Shown here: one piece after another, positions 3,163-56,616 of the stretch
How the letters are laid out: each line of letters opens with the position of its first letter
How positions within the stretch are numbered: position 1 is the stretch's first letter
NCBI GenBank assembly: GCA_024742605.1
Contig: JANSYC010000006.1
Span: 1-64,000 of the forward strand
Direction of reading: 5' to 3'
Source of the DNA: Alphaproteobacteria bacterium
GTDB taxonomy: Bacteria > Pseudomonadota > Alphaproteobacteria > Thalassobaculales > Thalassobaculaceae
Length of the DNA: 64,000 nt
Notes under the pieces: model-generated
Database searches by the model: none
Told to the model about the DNA's origin: nothing
Seen by the model: the letters and a program-made list of their open reading frames with translations, nothing else
Position numbers and translations under genes: made by a program

Positions 3163-4278
3163 CTAGCCTTTCGGCGCCAAAGGATCGTCGTCATCGTCCT
3201 CGTCGTCGGCCGGCGCCAGGTCCATGTCCATCTCCAGGTCCGGGTCCATCTCCGGGTCCGCCTCCAGATTTCCGGCGAGATCCGCCGCCTTGCGCATGTT
3301 CTCGTCGAAATTATCGGCCAGTTCGGCGGAGAAATCCGGAGAGGAGAACGGTGCCCGCTCGGCCGAGCCGGTGGAGATGTTCGACAGCCGCTCGACGATC
3401 AGGTCGAGCTGGTCGAGGTCGCCGTAGCGGATGCTGACCGCGCCGGCACCGGTCTTGGAGTTGTGATCGATGGCGACGGTCAGACCCAGCCGCTCGGTCA
3501 GATCCTCCTCCAGCACCCTTGTGTCCGCGTCCTTCTGCCTGCCCGCCCCGGCGGTGCGTTTGCTGGCCGCAGGCGCGCCGCCCGCCTTCTCGTTCTGCAC
3601 CAGCCGCTCGGTCTCGCGCACGTTCAGCTTGCGGGTCACCACGATCCGGGCCAGGGCCGAGGGATCCTCGGCCGACAGCAGGGCGCGGGCGTGTCCCATG
3701 GTCAGCTGGCCGTCGTCCAGCAGGGCCCGCGCCTCGTCCGGCAGCAGCAGCAGCCGCATCATATTGGCCACATGGCTGCGGCTCTTCGCGACCGCACGGG
3801 CGATCGCCTCCTGGCTGTGGCCGTAATCCTCGGTCAGCCGCCGATAGCCCTCGGCCTCCTCGAGCGGGCCGAGATCCTTGCGCTGGACGTTTTCGACCAG
3901 GGCGATCTCCATCGCCGTGCGGTCGTCGAACTCGCGCACCAGGACCGGCACCTCGTGCAGCTGCGCCATCTGAGAGGCCCGCCAGCGCCGCTCCCCGGCG
4001 ATGATCTGATAGCCCTCGCCCTCCGGATCCCGCCGCACCAGGATCGGCTGCAGCACGCCGTTCTCCCGGATGCTCTCGGAAAGCTCGCGCAGTTCCTCCT
4101 CGTCGAACCGGCGGCGGGGCTGGAACGGGCCGGGCGCCAGCCGTTCGATCGGCAGGGAGCGGGTCTGGCGCAGCCGGTCGAGCTGAGCCTGATCCTCGTC
4201 CTCGTCCTCGCCCAGCAGGGCCGACAGCCCTCGGCCGAGCTTCTTGTTGGTCTTCTTCGGCGCGGGTTCGTCACTCAT
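3163..4278 (-). CDS. parB: ParB, chromosome-partitioning CTPase and parS-binding protein
   Basis: Binds parS, spreads as a CTP-dependent sliding clamp and loads SMC. With the ATG that opens MSDEPAPKKTNKK the protein is 371 residues; a longer upstream frame is rejected because it runs into parA and lacks family similarity. Motifs: the ParA-stimulating GRGLSALLGED box near residue 16, the CTP-binding GERRWRAS (about 100) and ENVQRKDL (about 130) motifs, a helix-turn-helix around HSQEAIARAVAKSRSHVANMM (about 150-170), and a C-terminal dimerisation region. The tail is unusually acidic, with repeated Asp/Glu. Five parS or parS-like sites lie 1.6-7.3 kb from this gene's start. Confidence 0.97.
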   Translation of the reverse strand: MSDEPAPKKTNKKLGRGLSALLGEDEDEDQAQLDRLRQTRSLPIERLAPGPFQPRRRFDEEELRELSESIRENGVLQPILVRRDPEGEGYQIIAGERRWRASQMAQLHEVPVLVREFDDRTAMEIALVENVQRKDLGPLEEAEGYRRLTEDYGHSQEAIARAVAKSRSHVANMMRLLLLPDEARALLDDGQLTMGHARALLSAEDPSALARIVVTRKLNVRETERLVQNEKAGGAPAASKRTAGAGRQKDADTRVLEEDLTERLGLTVAIDHNSKTGAGAVSIRYGDLDQLDLIVERLSNISTGSAERAPFSSPDFSAELADNFDENMRKAADLAGNLEADPEMDPDLEMDMDLAPADDEDDDDDPLAPKG

Positions 4279-4381: not shown

Positions 4382-5224
4382 TCAGGCGGCCTCCGCCAGA
4401 TCCTTCTCGCGCCGAAGCACCTCCCGCGCCAGGTCCAGATAGGCGCGGGCGCCGGTGCAGGCCATATCGTAGAGCAGAACCGGCTTGCCGTAGGACGGGG
4501 CTTCCGAAACCCGCACATTGCGCGGGATCATCGTCCGGTAGACCGTGGTGCCGAAATGCTCCCGCACATCGGCCGCAACCTGTTCGGACAGGTTGTTGCG
4601 GCGGTCGAACATGGTCAGAACCACGCCCTGGATCTCCAGGGTCGGGTTCAGATGCTTGCGCACCCGCTCCACCGTCCGCACCAGCTGGGAAAGGCCCTCG
4701 AGGGCGTAAAACTCGCATTGCAGCGGCACCAGAACCGCGTCGGACGCCACCAGCGCGTTCAGGGTCAGCAGGCCCAGGGAGGGCGGGCAATCGATCAGAA
4801 TGTAGTCATAGGGCGAGGCCGCGGCATGACGGACCACCGCCTCCCGCAGGCGGAACTCCCGGTGCTCCATCTCCACCAGCTCGATCTCCGCCCCCGACAG
4901 GTTGTGGGACGCGGGCACCAGCTCCAGCCCGGGGATGCCGGATTCGATCGCCGCGTCGGCAATCGTGGCCTCGCCGATCAGCACCGCATAGGAATCCGCC
5001 TCCCGCTTGTTGCGGGCGACGCCGAAACCGGTGGACGCGTTGCCCTGGGGATCCAGATCGATCACCAGCACCCGCTTGTTGCAGGCCGCCATCGCGGTCG
5101 CCAGGTTCACCGCCGTGGTGGTTTTGCCCACCCCGCCCTTCTGATTCACGATCGCCAGGATCCGGGGGGCCACGCTGCCGCCGGCGGGCGGCATATCGGG
5201 CATCGAACGGGCTGCATCAGGCAT
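4382..5224 (-). CDS. parA: ParA, chromosome-partitioning ATPase
   Basis: Deviant Walker ATPase that binds DNA non-specifically and moves ParB-parS complexes. The 280-residue protein has a short N-terminal extension, then the deviant Walker A motif NQKGGVGKTTTAVNLA (about residues 28-43), Walker A' near VLVIDLDPQGNAS and Walker B in YILIDCPPSLG. It starts inside the end of rsmG (8-base overlap), giving the usual alphaproteobacterial order mnmG-rsmG-parA-parB. It acts on the nucleoid and works with the parS sites listed here. Confidence 0.98.
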   Translation of the reverse strand: MPDAARSMPDMPPAGGSVAPRILAIVNQKGGVGKTTTAVNLATAMAACNKRVLVIDLDPQGNASTGFGVARNKREADSYAVLIGEATIADAAIESGIPGLELVPASHNLSGAEIELVEMEHREFRLREAVVRHAAASPYDYILIDCPPSLGLLTLNALVASDAVLVPLQCEFYALEGLSQLVRTVERVRKHLNPTLEIQGVVLTMFDRRNNLSEQVAADVREHFGTTVYRTMIPRNVRVSEAPSYGKPVLLYDMACTGARAYLDLAREVLRREKDLAEAA

Positions 5225-5845: not shown

Positions 5846-7717
5846 TCAGGCCGCCGACCGGTTGGCGCCGCGTTTCACGTGACGCAAAAGCGCCAGGGTC
5901 GCTGCCGGCGTCATCCCCGGCAGCCGCGCCGCCTGGCCCAAAGTGGTCGGCCGCGCCCGCTTCAGAAGATCCCGCACCTCCGAGGACAGACTCCCGATCG
6001 CGTCCGGGTCGAGATCCTCCGGCAGGACCACCGCCTCGTCCCGGCGATAGGCCTTCACATCCAGATCCTGGCGCGCCAGATACCCGGAATAGAGCGCCTC
6101 GATCGAGAGCTGCTCGGCCAGATCCGGGCCGATTGCAGCCAGCTCCTCGGGCCAGGCCCGGACCAGCGCCGCCCAGTCGACCCCCGGATAGGACAGGAGA
6201 TCGGCCGCACTGCGCCGCTGTCCGTCCTGGTTGACGGAAAAGCCGCGCTTCGCCAACTGGGGCGGAGAGCCGCCGAGCCGGTCGAGTGTTTCACGTGAAA
6301 CATCGAGCCGCGCCATCCGGGTCTCAAAGGCGGCCTGACGGGCGGATCCCACCAGACCGGCGGCGAGTCCCAGGCCGGTGAGGCGCTGATCCGCGTTGTC
6401 GGCCCGCAGGTACAGCCGGTATTCGGCGCGGGAGGTGAACATCCGATAGGGTTCCGGCGCGCCGCGCGTGGTCAGATCGTCGATCATCACACCTATATAT
6501 CCTTGCGCCCGGTCAATGCTGAGGGTGACCCCCGCCGCATGGGTACCGGCCACCAGACCCTGGGCCGCCGCCTCCTCGTAGCCGGTGGTGCCGTTGATCT
6601 GCCCCGCCAGATAGAGTCCGGGCAGCCGGCGGCTCTGAAGATCGGCCGTCAGGTCCCGCGGATCGGCATAGTCATACTCGATCGCGTAGCCCGGCTGCAG
6701 GATTTCCGCGCACTCCAGCCCCGGGATGGTCTTGAGTAGCGAGTCCTGGACATCCCGCGGCAGAGAGGTCGAAATGCCGTTCGGATAGACCGTCGGATCG
6801 TCCAGGCCCTCCGGTTCCAGGAAGATCTGGTGGCTGGTCTTGTCGGCGAAGCGGACGATCTTGTCCTCGATCGACGGGCAATAGCGCGGGCCCCGCCCCT
6901 CGATATGGCCGCCATACATGGCCGAGCGGTGCAGATTGTCCCGGATGATCCGGTGCCCGGCCTCGGAGGTCGCGGTGATGTGGCAGGGAATCTGCGGCAC
7001 CGTGATCCGATCGGTCAGGGTGGAGAAGGGCACCGGCGGGTCGTCGCCGTGCTGCGCGTCCAACCCGGCCCAATCGATGGTGCGGCCGTCCAGCCGGGGC
7101 GGAGTCCCGGTCTTCAGACGTCCCAGCGGGAACCCCATCGCCTGCATCCGGGCGCCCAGGGCCGCGGCCGGACCGTCGCCGACCCGGCCGGCGGGCGTGC
7201 GCTCCTCGCCCATATGAATCATACCGCGCAGGAAGGTGCCGGTGGTCAGCACCACGGCCCCCGCCCGGAGCCGCCGGCCGTCCTGCAGCACCACGCCGCC
7301 GCAGCGTCCATCGGCTCCGACGATCAGATCGTCGACCCCGGCCTCTTCGATAGAGAGGGTTTCGTATTCCCGCAGGATCTCCTGAACCGCCTGGCGATAG
7401 AGCTTGCGGTCGGCCTGGGCGCGGGGGCCGCGCACCGCCGGGCCTTTCGACAGGTTGAGCACCCGGAACTGAATCCCCGACCGGTCGATGGCCCGGGCCA
7501 TGATCCCGTCCAGCGCATCGATCTCCCGCACCAGATGGCCCTTGCCCAATCCACCGATTGCCGGATTGCAGGACATCACCCCGATGGTGTCGCGCCGATG
7601 GGTCACCAGAACCGTGCGCGCGCCCAGACGGGCGGACGCCGCCGCAGCCTCGCAGCCGGCATGGCCGCCGCCCACGACGATCACGTCCCAGAGTATGGTG
7701 TCGGCCTGTGCGCTCAT
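5846..7717 (-). CDS. mnmG: MnmG (GidA), tRNA uridine-34 cmnm5 modification subunit
   Basis: FAD- and NADH-dependent subunit that, with MnmE, adds the carboxymethylaminomethyl group to wobble uridine in tRNAs. I start at the ATG opening [12 protein letters not shown] (623 residues); a start 48 bases upstream is possible but would run into the parS site. Visible motifs are the FAD-binding GGGHAG (about 14-19), [20 protein letters not shown], and the C-terminal tRNA-binding region. A perfect parS lies inside the coding sequence, where it is read as codons near the C-terminal third, and a degenerate one lies near the stop. Confidence 0.97.
5871..5886. promoter_or_regulatory. Degenerate parS-like site inside mnmG
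   Basis: Matches 13 of 16 positions of the parS palindrome TGTTTCACGTGAAACA, with the left half nearly intact (GTTTCACGTGA) and the right half altered. It lies close to the 3' end of mnmG. It may be a weak ParB site or a decayed one. Confidence 0.45.
6287..6302. promoter_or_regulatory. parS: parS site inside mnmG
   Basis: Perfect 16 of 16 match to the chromosomal parS consensus TGTTTCACGTGAAACA, embedded in the coding sequence of mnmG. ParB nucleates here and spreads. The site is about 12.6 kb from the predicted origin. Confidence 0.93.
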
Positions 7718-7764: not shown

Positions 7765-7780
7765 TGTTTCACGTGAAACA
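7765..7780. promoter_or_regulatory. parS: parS site between mnmG and mnmE
   Basis: Perfect 16 of 16 parS match in the 69-base gap between mnmE and mnmG. The dyad extends three further bases on each side (7762-7783), making it the most symmetric site in the window. ParB binding here could also affect mnmG transcription, which is inference. Confidence 0.95.
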
Positions 7781-9206: not shown

Positions 9207-9701
9207 ATGGCCACCGACACCGCCCTGCACGCAAGCCGCCTGGAGAGCCCCGTGGGAGACCTGGTTGCGCTGTCGGACGGCGCGCATCTGGTCCGGCTCA
9301 CCTGGAACGAGGAGCTGGACGAGGCGACCGCGCTTGTCGGGGAGGACGCCGTTTCACGTGAAACATCGAGGCAGATCAAGGCTTATTTCGCGCGCGAACT
9401 GACCGCCTTCGAGCTGCCGATCCGCTTCGCCCGCGGCACGGACTTCGAACAGGCGGTCTGGCGGGGCATGCTGGAGATCCCCCATGGCGAGACCAGAACC
9501 TATGGCGATCTGGCGCAGCTGACCGATGGGATCGCGCGGGCCGTCGGCACCGCCTGCGGCCGCAATCCGATCCCGATCGTGGTGCCCTGCCACCGGGTGG
9601 TCGGCGCCGACGGCAAACTGGTCGGGTTCTCCGGCGGCAAGGGGGTGGAGACCAAATCCTGGCTGCTGGATTTCGAGCGGGGCCAGAAACGGCTGTTTTA
9701 A
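9207..9701 (+). CDS. Methylated-DNA-[protein]-cysteine S-methyltransferase
   Basis: Suicide repair protein that removes alkyl groups from O6-alkylguanine or O4-alkylthymine. The 164-residue protein has the acceptor motif PCHRV with Cys128 and the upstream helix-turn-helix containing the Arg finger (RAVGTACGRNP). This matches the Ogt/MGMT single-domain form without an Ada regulatory domain. I begin at ATG MATDTAL; a TTG start 33 bases upstream is less likely. A parS site forms codons 48-53 (AVSRET), so the segregation signal is built into the protein sequence. It is divergent from mnmE. Confidence 0.92.
   Translation: MATDTALHASRLESPVGDLVALSDGAHLVRLTWNEELDEATALVGEDAVSRETSRQIKAYFARELTAFELPIRFARGTDFEQAVWRGMLEIPHGETRTYGDLAQLTDGIARAVGTACGRNPIPIVVPCHRVVGADGKLVGFSGGKGVETKSWLLDFERGQKRLF
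9350..9365. promoter_or_regulatory. parS: parS site inside the alkyltransferase gene
   Basis: Matches 15 of 16 positions of the parS palindrome (first T replaced by C). It lies within the coding sequence of the alkyltransferase, about 9.5 kb from the predicted origin. Confidence 0.88.
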
Positions 9702-11580: not shown

Positions 11581-11596
11581 CGTTTCACGTGAAACA
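11581..11596. promoter_or_regulatory. parS: parS site downstream of the quinone oxidoreductase
   Basis: Matches 15 of 16 positions of the parS palindrome (first T replaced by C). It is intergenic, directly before the terminator, and is the site nearest the predicted origin at about 7.2 kb. Confidence 0.9.
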
Positions 11597-51457: not shown

Positions 51458-51869
51458 CTATCGGGGAAATCTGTCGGCGATCATTTTCTTCATGGCGTTC
51501 ACCGTCACGGTGTCGAAGATGCCGGAAGCAGCCAGGTTGTTTCGGCGTTGAAGCTCCTCTACGGCTTGGCGGGTCTCCGGGCGGGCCTTGCCATCGGCTT
51601 CGCCCGGCCAGATGCCGAGAAGCTGCAGGGACCGCTGCCGGATCAGGTCTTGGGGCGTGTTGACGACGCTTTGTAGTCGCTCTGGCCACCGGCGAGATCC
51701 CCCGTCGGGACCCGGTTGATCCCACGCTTCCCATAGGCGATCGCCGACGGACTGACGGAGACCCATTTCGCCGCGACGGCAAGGGCCTGCGGAACCGTCG
51801 GTTTTCCCCTAGGAGCCCTGCCAGCACTCCGAAGCCCAGCGTGATCGCGGTCACGATCGATCCCCGCAT
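51458..51869 (-). pseudogene. Frameshifted peptidoglycan-binding-like protein
   Basis: Three coherent pieces lie in three successive reading frames on one strand. The first is a hydrophobic start (MRGSIVTAITLGFGVLAGLL), then VPQALAVAAKWVSVSPSA, then a PG_binding_1-like end with LQLLGIWPGEADGKARPETR, AVEELQRR and FDTVTVNAMKKM. Reading them as one protein needs two frameshifts, near 51805 and 51665. The intact product would be an exported or membrane-anchored protein of about 135 residues. Sequencing error is an alternative explanation. Confidence 0.55.
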
Positions 51870-51998: not shown

Positions 51999-52072
51999 TG
52001 GCTGGGGCACCTGGATTCGAACCAGGGATGCCGATACCAAAAACCGGTGCCTTACCGCTTGGCTATGCCCCA
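51999..52072 (-). tRNA. tRNA-Gln (anticodon TTG)
   Basis: 74-base tRNA on the minus strand, including an encoded CCA end. It starts TGGGGCATAGCCAAGCGGTA, has the anticodon loop TTTTGGT with anticodon TTG, and the T-arm GGTTCGAATCC. The TGGGG start and sequence overall match alphaproteobacterial tRNA-Gln. It lies between the frameshifted PG-binding relic and the WSVKGI cluster, a plausible insertion point for mobile DNA, although no integrase is seen. Confidence 0.93.
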
Positions 52073-52210: not shown

Positions 52211-52714
52211 ATGGTGAGATCATCGGGGGGTGGCAAGGCCAGTCTGCCCTGGAGTGTCAAAGGCGTGACCCCTACGGCCCGCGACCTGGCCAAGGATCAG
52301 GCCGGTGAGGCCGGGGCCACGATGGGCCAATGGCTGAGCGGCGTGGTCCGCCGGATCGGCGCCGCCGAGGCCTCGGGCAAGGCGCTGGTGCCGGCCGAGA
52401 CCCCACCACCCTCCACCGAGGTTGCGTCGGGCGGTGGCGACGGCCGGGATGCGGCCGAGCCGATCGACGAGCGCGAAATGATTGAGATGGTCTCCGAACG
52501 GATCCTCGCGACCGAGGAGCGTCTGGTCGGACTGCTGGGCAATCTGGAGGACATCATCGTCTCGCTCGGCGATCGTCTCGAGCGGCTGGAACGCCGGACC
52601 GAGACCGGAGCCGCCCTGCCGGATGATCGCCGCCGGGATCCCGACCTGGAGGGACCGCGCGGCGAGGGCTCGGCCCGGTCGGATGAGACCGGCACGCCCA
52701 CGCTTCTGAACTGA
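52211..52714 (+). CDS. WSVKGI-module protein A (coiled-coil)
   Basis: 167 residues with an N-terminal box PWSVKGVTPTARDLAK at 13-28, then GATMGQWLSGVVRR. A predicted coiled coil follows near 95-140 (MVSERILATEERLVGLLGNL), then an acidic, disordered end. It has no signal peptide or membrane helix. The N-terminal box matches that of the next two genes and the N-terminus of PodJ-type polarity proteins. It may be a soluble partner of the membrane-bound PodJ-like protein. Function is inference. Confidence 0.7.
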   Translation: MVRSSGGGKASLPWSVKGVTPTARDLAKDQAGEAGATMGQWLSGVVRRIGAAEASGKALVPAETPPPSTEVASGGGDGRDAAEPIDEREMIEMVSERILATEERLVGLLGNLEDIIVSLGDRLERLERRTETGAALPDDRRRDPDLEGPRGEGSARSDETGTPTLLN

Positions 52715-52842
52715 CCGGCGATCCGAAATCCCGGGCCCACCGTCCGGGGTCCGCTTCCCTACCACCAAATGTATGGCCCCTACCTAACCGAGTATCAATT
52801 GGTTGAGTGGACCTAGATAAGCAGGAAAACCCCGCAAGCCGC

Positions 52843-52870
52843 TTGTTTTTCTGCGGAATTACCGTATATT
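52843..52870 (+). promoter_or_regulatory. Possible promoter for WSVKGI gene B
   Basis: TTGTTT at 52843 and TATATT at 52865 with a 16-base spacer in an AT-rich part of the 260-base gap. A perfect DnaA box begins 9 bases after the -10. Confidence 0.45.
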
Positions 52871-52878
52871 GCTCAAAT

Positions 52879-52887
52879 TGTGGATAA
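52879..52887 (-). promoter_or_regulatory. Perfect DnaA box upstream of WSVKGI gene B
   Basis: TGTGGATAA on the plus strand, that is TTATCCACA on the minus strand, a 9 of 9 match to the DnaA box. It would fall near the transcription start of the putative promoter, placing DnaA where it could control this gene. Confidence 0.7.
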
Positions 52888-52974
52888 CTTGGTCGGACCT
52901 CGGGTCTGACGGTGGGTATGCCCCAGGTCCACATGTCCGTATGTGCAATAGCGACCCAAGGCAGCCCAGGCAGC

Positions 52975-53826
52975 ATGGCCGGAAACTCACCCTGGAGCGT
53001 CAAGGGCATTTCGCCCGAGGAGCGCGAGCTCGCCAAGCTGGCGGCGCGGCGGGCCGGTGTGCCGATCGGCCGCTGGTTGTCGGAACAGATCCGCTCGGCC
53101 GCAAACGGCGACGGCCGGACGCCGGACCGAGCTCCCAGCCAAACGGTCAGCCCCAATCCCCCACCGTCGGACTCCGCCGGCCCCGGATCTCAAGCGGCAC
53201 CTCCCACGCCAGCCCAGCCGGAGGCACGCGAGCGCCGGTTCGGGTTCGGCGGCTTCGCCCAGCCGGCCGGTGAGCCGCCGGTCCCCTGGCGGGCTCCGTC
53301 GCGTCCGGCGTCGCGGGACGCGGCCGACAGCGCCCCGTCCGGTGGTCCGCACCCGGCGCCCCGGGTCCTGCCGGAGATCGATCCGGCCCGGGTCTCCAAG
53401 CTCGAACGCGATATCCGCCATCTTCGGGATCTCGAGGGACGGGTCGAAGCGCTGCAGGGCGTGGAGCGGCGTCTGGGCGGGCTGTCCCAGCGTCTGCAGC
53501 AACTCGCCGAGCGCGTGGATGACGTGGAAGTCCGGATGGCGTCGCGGCCTGAGATCCGCCGGGAGTCCGATGCCGACCGTCCGGCGCCGAAACCGGAGAT
53601 CCCGAAGGAGCTGCTGGATCGGGTGTCCGGGATCGAAGGCGACGTCAAGGAGCTGATGGCCCGCCCGGACGGCGGCGGCGCGGAGCCGGTCACCCCCGTG
53701 ACGGCGCCGATCGAGCGCGCGGTCATGCGGCTGTCGGAACGGCTTCAGCGGGTAGAGGAAACCACCCTGACCGAGGATCGCCCGCGGCGGTCGCTGATGG
53801 CCCGTCTGTTCCGGCGGCGGCGTTAG
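52975..53826 (+). CDS. WSVKGI-module protein B (coiled-coil, basic tail)
   Basis: 283 residues with PWSVKGISPEERELAK at 6-21 and RAGVPIGRWLSEQIR. A long Pro-rich linker leads to a coiled coil near 140-190 (LERDIRHLRDLEGRVEAL and following) and a C-terminal helix (TAPIERAVMRLSERLQRVEE). It ends in a strongly basic RSLMARLFRRRR, which may bind membrane or nucleic acid. The ATG MAGNSPWSVKG gives a start comparable to its neighbours. No domain with known catalytic activity is seen. Confidence 0.7.
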   Translation: MAGNSPWSVKGISPEERELAKLAARRAGVPIGRWLSEQIRSAANGDGRTPDRAPSQTVSPNPPPSDSAGPGSQAAPPTPAQPEARERRFGFGGFAQPAGEPPVPWRAPSRPASRDAADSAPSGGPHPAPRVLPEIDPARVSKLERDIRHLRDLEGRVEALQGVERRLGGLSQRLQQLAERVDDVEVRMASRPEIRRESDADRPAPKPEIPKELLDRVSGIEGDVKELMARPDGGGAEPVTPVTAPIERAVMRLSERLQRVEETTLTEDRPRRSLMARLFRRRR

Positions 53827-53946
53827 CACCGGTAGCGCTACCCCGCGATCCGGCTTTCAATTTTGGCGCTACTCCTATAAAGTTCTGTTACTTAGTAAGT
53901 CTGATACGCGCGCGGCCTGCAGGCGCGCCAGCCCGAGGAACAGCGA

Positions 53947-56616
53947 TTGGCCCGATCCGGCGGAGCGTGGAGCGTCAAGGGGATCGATCAGGCGACCCGC
54001 GACATCGCGAAGCGGGCCGCACAAGCCTCCGGTCTGACCATCGGCGAGTGGATCGATCGCGCGATCCTGCAGGATGCCCGCAGCAAGGGCCTGTCGGTCG
54101 CACCCGACCCGACCGCGGCGCGGACGGGCCCGGCCACCGGTGACCGCCGCGGGGTTGGCGGGGTCTCGTCCGATGTGATGGCCGAGCTGCATCGGCGGCT
54201 GGACGAGTCCGACGCCCGAATGGATGCCGCCCTGCGTCCGATCGCCTACAGCCTGCACGATCTGGCGGTTCGCTTGGTGGAAGCCGAGCGCGCGGCCCAT
54301 GCCGCTCCCCCGCAGGAACTCGCAGGCCCCCTGCAGGACGAACCCGCAGCAGCCGACCCCGATACGGACCCTCTTGGAGCGGAGGAGCCGGCCGCCGAGC
54401 GGGCGGTGCTCGCAGGTCCGGAAGAGGCCGCGCCGGCCGCCGACGCGCCGGGTATCGGCATAGAGAGCCCTGATTTGGAGGGCCCTGACGTCCAGGGGGC
54501 CGATCCGGACTTGTTGGAGTCGGACACGACGCCCGAGGTGGAGCCTGAGAGCGGTCCTGACCTTTCGGCGGACACCGGTCCCGCCGCGCCGGACCCCAAG
54601 GACCTCGAGATTTCCATTCCGGCGGTTCCGGCGCCCCCGGCACCAAAACTCAAGGCCCGTCCGGCTCCGCAGCCGCCCCGATACGACTTTCCGCTTGCGA
54701 CGGAGGGGCTGCCGGATCCGGGCGCCGACACCGTCGGCCGCCACGCGCGGACAGAGGAGACCCCCGCGGACGCGGCCCCGGCCGCGCTCGAAACCGGCCT
54801 GCGACCCGATCCGGTTCCGCCGCGCGGCGACCTGACGCCCGACGACCTGCTCGGGGGTCTGCAGGTTGGGGATCTGCAGGGGGCCGAGAGGCCGGATCCG
54901 CTGCCGGTCCTGCCCGAGGAGGGCATCGCGCCCGAGGTGGCCGATACGGCGGTCTCGGACGCGTCCGAAAGACCCCGCCGGTCCGGGGCGCGGACCGCCG
55001 CCATGCTGCTGGCGGCGGCCGTCCTCCTGCTGGGAACCGTCTTCGGTGCCTGGTGGTTTGGCGGCGGCGGGCGCATCACCGATCCGGATCGGATGATGGC
55101 GGCGCTCGGTGAACGGCTGGCGCAGGCCCAGCGTTCGGTCACCGATGCGGCCGCGGAGGCCTGGCATCAGGCGCAGGACGGGGTCTCCGGATTGTTCCCG
55201 CCGGACATCGCGTCGGAGAGCGGCCCGGACACTGGGCCCGCGCCTGTCGATCCCGTGGAGAGCGCGGAGCCGCCGAAAGCCGACCTGCCGGTGCTCGAGA
55301 CGGCGGAGACCCCGGCGGCGCCCGCACCTGGACAGCCGCCCGTGCCGGACGTCGTCGGCGAGGCGATCCCGCCGCAACCGACCGCTCCGCAACCGACCGC
55401 CCCGCAACCGACCGCCCCGCAACCGACCGTTGCCCCGGGGTCCGAGATGCAGCCCCAGGAGCCGGCCGCGGTCGCACCCGAGGTGGCCGAGACCCCGCCT
55501 GCCGGCACGCTCGCGGAGGCTCCGGCCGAACCGGCCGCCGAAGTTCCGGCGCCGGAGGCTGAAGCTGCACAGGTCGAGACCGCACGGGCACCGGCCCCGG
55601 GACAGGATCCGGCCGATGTGATGCCGCCTCCGGCCCCGGCACCCGCGCCGGTGGTCGAGGAGCTGGCCCAGGTCCCGCCGCCGCCTGCCCCGGCGGTCGG
55701 TCCAGCCTCCGCCGCCCCGTCCGGCACGACGCCGGAGCCGGCAGCGGACCAGAGCGTTCCGGCGGCGCCGGTGGCCGCCTCCGGCAGCCCGGAGCAGGCC
55801 CCGGTGCGGGACGTGACCTCGGCGCTTCAGGACAGGACCGCCGCACTGCCGCCGGAGGCCCCCGCGCTGCCGATCGCGGAGCTGCGGGCGCGGGCGATCG
55901 CGGGCGATCCACGGGCGCAGAACGATCTTGCGTCCCGGCTGATCGGGCAGGACCCGCCCGATGTGGAAGAGGCCGCCAACTGGTTCCGGGAAGCCGCGAT
56001 CCAGGGGGTTCCGGGCGCCCAGTACAATCTCGGGGTTCTCTACGAGCGCGGGCTCGGCGTGCGGCAGGACGAGACCCGCGCCCTGCTCTGGTACCACAGC
56101 GCGGCCGAGCAGGGGCACCCGCTGGCGCAGTACAATCTCGGCATCCTCTACGCGGCCGGGCGGGCGGTGCCGCTCTCCTATGCCGAGGCGGCGGTCTGGT
56201 TCGAGCGGGCGGCGGCCCGCGGGGTTCCGGCGGCGGCCTACAATCTGGCGGTGCTGCTGGAGGGCGGGCTCGGCCGCACCCGCGATATGGAACAGGCGAT
56301 GGCCTATTACGCGCGAGCGAAGGAGTTGGGCCACAGGGGAGCCGCCCAGCGGCTTGCCGGAGAGACGCCGACCTCCGCCGGCGACGGGCTGCTGGACCTG
56401 GCCGAGACCACCTCGAACACCGGCACGGTCGGCGTCCGCGAGATCGCCGCGATCCAGGAGCGTCTGAGCGAGATCGGGTTCTACACCGGAGCGGTCGACG
56501 GCATCGCCGGCCCGCAGACCCGCGCGGCCATCGGGCGTTACCAGGCGAGCGAGGACCTGCCGGTCACCGGGCTCCCGTCAACAGGGCTTCTGCGCCATCT
56601 GCAGGGTCATACCTGA
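53947..56616 (+). CDS. PodJ-like WSVKGI protein C: membrane-spanning with SEL1 and PG-binding domains
   Basis: 889 residues. The N-terminal box (AWSVKGIDQATRDIAK, residues 7-22) is followed by a disordered cytoplasmic part rich in Pro/Ala/Asp, a transmembrane helix near 349-371, a Pro-rich periplasmic linker, SEL1 repeats about 645-800 and a PG_binding_1 domain about 830-886 (ERLSEIGFYTGAVDGIAG). The order matches PodJ-type localisation factors. The start is TTG with a GAGGA site seven bases away. Four PQPTA repeats lie at residues 476-495. Confidence 0.82.
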   Translation: MARSGGAWSVKGIDQATRDIAKRAAQASGLTIGEWIDRAILQDARSKGLSVAPDPTAARTGPATGDRRGVGGVSSDVMAELHRRLDESDARMDAALRPIAYSLHDLAVRLVEAERAAHAAPPQELAGPLQDEPAAADPDTDPLGAEEPAAERAVLAGPEEAAPAADAPGIGIESPDLEGPDVQGADPDLLESDTTPEVEPESGPDLSADTGPAAPDPKDLEISIPAVPAPPAPKLKARPAPQPPRYDFPLATEGLPDPGADTVGRHARTEETPADAAPAALETGLRPDPVPPRGDLTPDDLLGGLQVGDLQGAERPDPLPVLPEEGIAPEVADTAVSDASERPRRSGARTAAMLLAAAVLLLGTVFGAWWFGGGGRITDPDRMMAALGERLAQAQRSVTDAAAEAWHQAQDGVSGLFPPDIASESGPDTGPAPVDPVESAEPPKADLPVLETAETPAAPAPGQPPVPDVVGEAIPPQPTAPQPTAPQPTAPQPTVAPGSEMQPQEPAAVAPEVAETPPAGTLAEAPAEPAAEVPAPEAEAAQVETARAPAPGQDPADVMPPPAPAPAPVVEELAQVPPPPAPAVGPASAAPSGTTPEPAADQSVPAAPVAASGSPEQAPVRDVTSALQDRTAALPPEAPALPIAELRARAIAGDPRAQNDLASRLIGQDPPDVEEAANWFREAAIQGVPGAQYNLGVLYERGLGVRQDETRALLWYHSAAEQGHPLAQYNLGILYAAGRAVPLSYAEAAVWFERAAARGVPAAAYNLAVLLEGGLGRTRDMEQAMAYYARAKELGHRGAAQRLAGETPTSAGDGLLDLAETTSNTGTVGVREIAAIQERLSEIGFYTGAVDGIAGPQTRAAIGRYQASEDLPVTGLPSTGLLRHLQGHT
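55372..55431 (+). repeat. Four 15-base direct repeats in WSVKGI gene C
   Basis: CCGCAACCGACCGCT-type units repeated four times in frame, coding PQPTA (the last unit ends V). They sit in the Pro-rich periplasmic linker and could vary in copy number. Confidence 0.8.

Follow-up and report, generated by a model that had tools for sequence, protein, structure and literature searches.

A common N-terminal module of predicted RHH fold in a PodJ-like protein and its two soluble neighbours suggests a system tying the chromosome origin to the cell envelope in Alphaproteobacteria

The locus described here raises the question of why three consecutive genes should open with the same short domain, what that domain is and whether their products act together. 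The genes lie in the window, the 64,000-nucleotide stretch of alphaproteobacterial DNA that was analysed, and are referred to as P1, P2 and P3 (M1, M2 and M3 across relatives). Their features are as follows.

52211..52714, + strand: P1 (M1), 167 aa; N-terminal module, linker and C-terminal amphipathic helix (residues ~88-128)
52244..52369, + strand: module of P1 (LPWSVKGVTPTARDLAKDQAGEAGATMGQWLSGVVRRI...)
52975..53826, + strand: P2 (M2), 283 aa; N-terminal module, disordered linker, coiled-coil-like region and conserved C-terminal motif
52984..53109, + strand: module of P2 (SPWSVKGISPEERELAKLAARRAGVPIGRWLSEQIRSAA)
53701..53823, + strand: M2 C-terminal signature, TAPIERAVMRLSERLQRVEE followed by the basic tail RSLMARLFRRRR
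53947..56616, + strand: P3 (M3), 889 aa; PodJ-like, bitopic, TTG start
53965..54087, + strand: module of P3 (GAWSVKGIDQATRDIAKRAAQASGLTIGEWIDRAILQDA)
54994..55050, + strand: predicted membrane helix of P3 (residues ~350-368; hydropathy scan)
56017..56334, + strand: three Sel1 repeats of P3, with an extra, weaker fourth stretch
56440..56598, + strand: PG_binding_1 of P3 (residues 832-884, E 4.9e-12)

The first-pass annotation had placed a common box at the start of all three proteins, and this was borne out at the coordinates given. The module occupies ~40 residues at the N-terminus of P1, P2 and P3, so the likeness reaches well beyond a few residues. Thirteen alignment columns are identical in all three copies, among them W-S-V-K-G, R, A-K, A, G and G-x-W, and the pairwise module scores of 86-103 stand far above the maximum of 45-49 reached in 1000 shuffles. 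Outside the module, pairwise comparison gave no convincing similarity of the three proteins to one another. A profile search of the 4.47 Mb genome returned P1, P2 and P3 at E ~1e-25, with the next best match at E 0.1, and the module is unique to these three within this genome. No Pfam or NCBIfam model covers it, and its consensus gave no match to plasmids. For P2, an alternative GTG start lies at 52912; the ATG at 52975 is the better match to relatives.

The first-pass annotation had further held that P3 alone carries a membrane helix, Sel1 repeats and a peptidoglycan-binding domain, and this too was found to be the case. By hydropathy, P1 has no membrane helix and only P3 of the three has one, while neither P1 nor P2 contains a Pfam family above cut-off. 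In P3 the helix, which is the hydropathy maximum, is followed by the Sel1 repeats and PG_binding_1. The sequence RPRRSGAR stands just before the helix, so that by the positive-inside rule the N-terminus is predicted to lie inside. The cytoplasmic part of ~350 aa, as read from the translation, is mainly Pro/Ala-rich with one coil-like stretch.

By computational evidence, the module very probably has a ribbon-helix-helix (RHH) fold, built of a strand, a helix, a turn and a second helix. In a Pfam scan of 105 modules the matches were mainly to RHH families (TacA1 12, HicB 10, NikA-like 10, FitA-like 5 and PSK_trans_fac 4), all scores being below the gathering cut-offs; no RHH family was matched by 60 column-permuted modules in Pfam. 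Comparison by hhalign with a profile of 14 FitA-like RHH domains from related genomes gave P 84.9% and E 6.4e-6 over 40 columns, and 100 permuted profiles reached a P of at most 2.3%. The predicted structure of the module (pLDDT 83.9) contains helices at 14-27 and 31-43; no strand is formed in this monomer model. The top 13 PDB matches in Foldseek are all RHH proteins (VapB12, Arc, TacA2, CopG and ParG), with TM up to 0.78 and single E-values of at least 1, as expected for a 50-residue query. VIA-align of the model ranked CopG first (Z 5.8), followed by further RHH chains. Searching PDB sequences with the module profile yielded nothing significant, the best E being 0.12 and VapB26 and MazE7 appearing weakly among unrelated proteins. 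When a natural module tandem (L225) was modelled with AF2, both helix pairs were formed and the pairing was not convincing (pTM 0.39). To our knowledge, the RHH fold works as an intertwined dimer in all well-studied cases.

The nearest members of the RHH superfamily are FitA/VapB, TacA, CopG and Arc, which share with the module a strand-helix-helix of ~40 residues in equal register. The module differs from them in the conserved Trp of its strand and second helix, and in being borne by scaffold proteins and not by repressors or antitoxins, DNA binding being only putative. An ordinary RHH toxin-antitoxin system was rejected as an explanation, as there is no toxin neighbour and the module is common to three scaffold-like proteins. 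The module could instead be a working DNA binder that acts on operators or bulk DNA, with M3 tying the nucleoid directly to the envelope or M1/M2 repressing their own operon, a reading considered unlikely. Known DNA binders have this fold and, because W-S-V-K-G-I aligns with the FitA-type I-T-I-R-N-L, K10 falls on the conserved Arg position. This position is K or R in 86/105 copies, and S8 is present in 83/105; however, position 10 is acidic in 13/105, which leaves room for DNA binding by the majority of copies, though not by every one. The strand face is also near-identical in the three paralogues and the PodJ-like proteins, unlike that of operator-specific repressors.

The three-gene order, whose recurrence the first-pass annotation had proposed as a check, was found in many families of the class. 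A comparison of 61 relatives showed a single cluster of matches per genome in almost every genome of the family of the window (f1), which has Nisaea, Thalassobaculum and strain BAL199 among its named members. In a sample of the class the module was present in 94 of 387 genomes, with three or more copies in 21, two in 15 and one in 58. Scattered, independent occurrence, named beforehand as the outcome that would speak against a joint system, was looked for but did not turn up: in genomes with at least two listed copies, these were always on one contig within ~3.4 kb, and modules at two distinct sites were found in none of the genomes sampled. In the 60 loci compared for gene order, M1-M2-M3 is fixed, the three-copy form occurring in at least nine families. 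M3 is always last and convergent with ispE, the gene for a TPR protein, ETF-QO and a uracil-DNA-glycosylase-like gene. The arrangement beside ispE-TPR-ETF-QO is found in f1 and, among others, in f121, f94, f109, f88, f101, f77 and f92. In some lineages only M1 and M3 are present, or M2 stands with an M3 whose module is no longer recognisable. The synteny of the trio is well supported.

Each member has its own conserved features, which makes these three conserved proteins with one common domain and not recent copies. Across families, M2 ends in S-T-A-P-(I/V)-E-R-A-x-x-R-(L/I)-x-E-R-L-x-x-(V/M/L)-E and a short basic tail, G-F-F-x-R-L-F, and this signature is found in orthologues from distant families. 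The C-terminal amphipathic helix of M1 is present in f1, f121, f51 and f109, and M3 has Sel1 repeats and usually also PG_binding_1. Neutral tandem duplication from one ancestor, with the genes kept together by conserved gene order and having no joint function, is very unlikely. The whole block is stable, since the ispE, TPR and ETF-QO neighbours are conserved too, as this explanation would expect. It was set aside because the distinct C-terminal signatures are retained across families, the copies were never seen apart, the fusion to ParB described below has arisen without leaving the locus, and M2 accompanies a PodJ-like gene at another locus in f73, where an M2 with the C-terminal motif follows that gene.

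The first-pass annotation had pointed to a resemblance to PodJ-type N-termini, and PodJ-like proteins of other lineages do begin with the module. These are single proteins of 900-1200 aa with a module N-terminus, a membrane helix, Sel1 repeats and mostly PG_binding_1, which are PodJ-like in architecture and presumably correspond to PodJ, the polar organelle development protein of Caulobacter and relatives. P3 resembles them in the module, the single membrane helix, the Sel1 repeats and PG_binding_1. The neighbours of the single-gene locus are a TSUP-like permease, a small exported protein, a metallophosphatase and an Lhr-type helicase, whereas P3 is not at that locus, the trio adjoining ispE-TPR-ETF-QO. 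P3 also differs in its shorter, mostly Pro/Ala-rich cytoplasmic part and in being accompanied by two soluble proteins bearing the same module. No sampled genome had both the trio locus and the single-gene locus, and for this reason the trio may be the counterpart of PodJ.

In the publications consulted, the N-terminus of PodJ is described only as a coiled coil (PMC8980812, PMC9684454). Truncations that lack the first 249 residues as a unit lose polar accumulation (PMC8980812), and deletions such as PodJ(250-635) would take out the module and CC1-3 together (PMC8980812, PMC9684454). The truncation phenotype is consistent with the module having a function, without isolating it. No description of an RHH domain in PodJ was found in the literature, the coverage of which was incomplete; the RHH assignment of the module is new here, as are the ParB fusions described below.

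It has been reported that PodJ binds PopZ and that loss of podJ impairs PopZ-dependent segregation (PMC10127582), which favours the scaffold reading set out below. As an alternative to that reading, the module might dock to one outside partner (PopZ, ParA or a division/pole protein), the trio being co-recruited clients with no mutual pairing, which is judged improbable. The same surface residues are strongly conserved in all copies (W7, G11, R17, A20, A24, G32 and W34 across the 105), as docking would lead one to expect, and nearly all genomes with the module also have PopZ. However, PopZ is equally common in genomes of the class without the module, so that in the class sample its co-occurrence does not discriminate. 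The binding of PopZ by PodJ maps to CC4-6, away from the extreme N-terminus (PMC10127582), and the module fold is a dimer fold. A separate PopZ gene is present in this genome. PopZ, ZitP and MipZ are known alphaproteobacterial means of holding ParB-parS at a pole (PMC10127582); their likeness to the trio would lie in such holding, and they have no sequence relation to it.

A possible client of the trio is indicated by the first gene of the locus in five families (f17, f102, f55, f70 and f8), which encodes the module followed by ParB_N and HTH_ParB, with ParB_C in four. The fusions are found in G051 (f17), G397 and G090 (f55), G105 (f70) and G042 (f8); in f102, a module-ParB first gene or the contig edge was found in all five sampled genomes. 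In G298 module copies at a contig edge were all that was seen, so that a ParB part is only putative there. By alignment, the module occupies the place of LGRGLSALLG, the ParA-binding motif of canonical ParB, whose LG-R/K-GL motif binds ParA (PMC12704722). The fusions are like chromosomal ParB (Spo0J family) in having ParB_N and HTH_ParB, but are without the ParA-binding LGRGL peptide and adjoin M2/M3 instead of parA. The fusions of f17 and f102 have kept the parS-reading helix GKSRSH(I/V)(A/S)N, which is degraded in f55, f70 and f8. A canonical ParB near parS is also present in most fusion genomes; in G051, with a completeness of 93%, the fusion is the only ParB found. P1 itself was rejected as a ParB, because it has no Pfam family, ParB_N and HTH_ParB not being found in it by the Pfam scan.

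The fusions also argue against DNA binding by the module. Its strand part is degenerate in f102 and some other fusions, where ParB brings its own DNA binding, and those copies therefore may not form a normal RHH dimer. The ParB of G773 contains about four helical repeats of the module, and f102 multiplies the helical part alone four-fold, without the strand.

The window also contains a complete parABS locus, with gidB, mnmG and mnmE.

3163..4278, - strand: canonical parB; LGRGLSALLG present, no module
4382..5224, - strand: parA (reading of the translation)
6287..6302, unstranded: parS, perfect palindrome TGTTTCACGTGAAACA
7765..7780, unstranded: parS, perfect
9350..9365, unstranded: parS-like, 1 mismatch
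11581..11596, unstranded: parS-like, 1 mismatch

The parS search of the window gave two perfect sites and two with one mismatch, with 0.01 expected. The trio lies ~48 kb from this locus, and within the window no parS is nearer to it than ~40 kb. In most f1 genomes (among them G002, G003, G014, G006, G007, G021, G026, G027, G034 and G035) and in four f121 genomes, all that were tested, the trio is ~16-22 kb from parB and on the same strand. Linkage is lost in f94, where 1.17 Mb separate the two. The linkage is suggestive but may reflect inherited gene order only, and a functional link between trio and parB is putative.

The first-pass annotation had proposed that the three proteins form one localisation complex with the module as a shared interaction or targeting domain, and this is supported in part, namely in the reality of the domain, the recurring gene order and the PodJ-like N-termini. 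The preferred reading, which could equally well prove right or wrong, is that the trio forms a PodJ-like scaffold system whose subunits pair through their RHH modules, with P3 as the anchor and the origin region as the client. The modules would pair with themselves and with each other, and the soluble M1 and M2 would be held on M3 through this pairing. M3 would span the membrane and bind peptidoglycan through its outer Sel1 and PG-binding part. The cytoplasmic client would be the chromosome origin region, or ParB-parS centromere, since the locus opens, in five families, with a module-ParB in which the module has taken the place of the ParA-binding peptide. In these fusion families, ParB bound to parS would be brought to the envelope scaffold by its module. 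As M1 of the window is without a ParB part, its link to parABS would have to be made via the M1 module, the M1 C-terminal helix or PopZ. It is in this sense that we infer module pairing and origin tethering. A more detailed arrangement is put forward tentatively and is somewhat doubtful: a centromere-envelope linkage in which RHH modules connect the proteins, module-ParB or M1 sits at parS, M2 is the adaptor and M3 the anchor in membrane and peptidoglycan. It would be an alternative to anchoring of the PopZ type, with PodJ itself bearing the same hitherto unrecognised RHH connector.

PodJ is a central polarity scaffold, and an RHH domain in its N-terminus would make the role of that region testable. 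The trio and the ParB fusions are a concrete candidate for a link from an envelope scaffold to the centromere, in alphaproteobacterial lineages in which polarity has hardly been studied and for which cultured hosts exist (Nisaea and Thalassobaculum). Together, the trio and the module-ParB fusions suggest a system tying the chromosome origin to the cell envelope.

A local rearrangement has occurred in the window genome (window 3163-56616), since the trio of module-bearing genes is reversed relative to parB, unlike in relatives, and the two are separated by 48 kb instead of the 16-22 kb found in those relatives. Immediately upstream of the trio, on the opposite strand, is the gene for a small protein, followed by a tRNA gene:

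window 51458-51766, (-): small PG_binding_1 protein, 102 aa (PG_binding_1 E 1.5e-11)
window 51999-52072: tRNA-Gln, between the PG_binding_1 gene and the trio

The module, of about 40 residues with a computed RHH fold, is also found twice within natural single chains:

L225 2466-4646, (+): M3 with two modules
L092 8159-8944, (-): M2 with two modules
L231 6902-8149, (+): ParB fusion with two modules

At locus L255 (1025-2638, +), ParB carries the module in about four tandem helical copies, N-terminal to ParB_N. The PodJ-like M3 is apparently carried in two frames at L086, L088 and L094, in several genomes of two genera: a membrane part of ~350-365 aa bearing the module and, downstream, a separate Sel1 frame. 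This may be either a genuine split or a frameshift.

A diverged module, RYWKLDGVSPSTRAAVKAAAHHAGENVGAWVDQVL, forms the C-terminal end of three open frames of 429-474 aa:

L217 4807-6147, (-): frame with diverged module and TniQ domain
L218 4972-6393, (-): frame with diverged module
L219 4988-6274, (-): frame with diverged module

This is a transposon-related protein with an RHH-like module at its C-terminus, outside the trio.

Short proteins of 110-160 aa, in which the module reads RPWTIRDIDDETRKLVIRAAKREGMTISQWVNRVL and is accompanied by a short coil, are encoded at L186-L191 in genomes (G436, G439, G442, G464, G478 and G492) sharing the phylum of the window but not its class. These look closer to ordinary RHH proteins, and may stand close to where the module originated.
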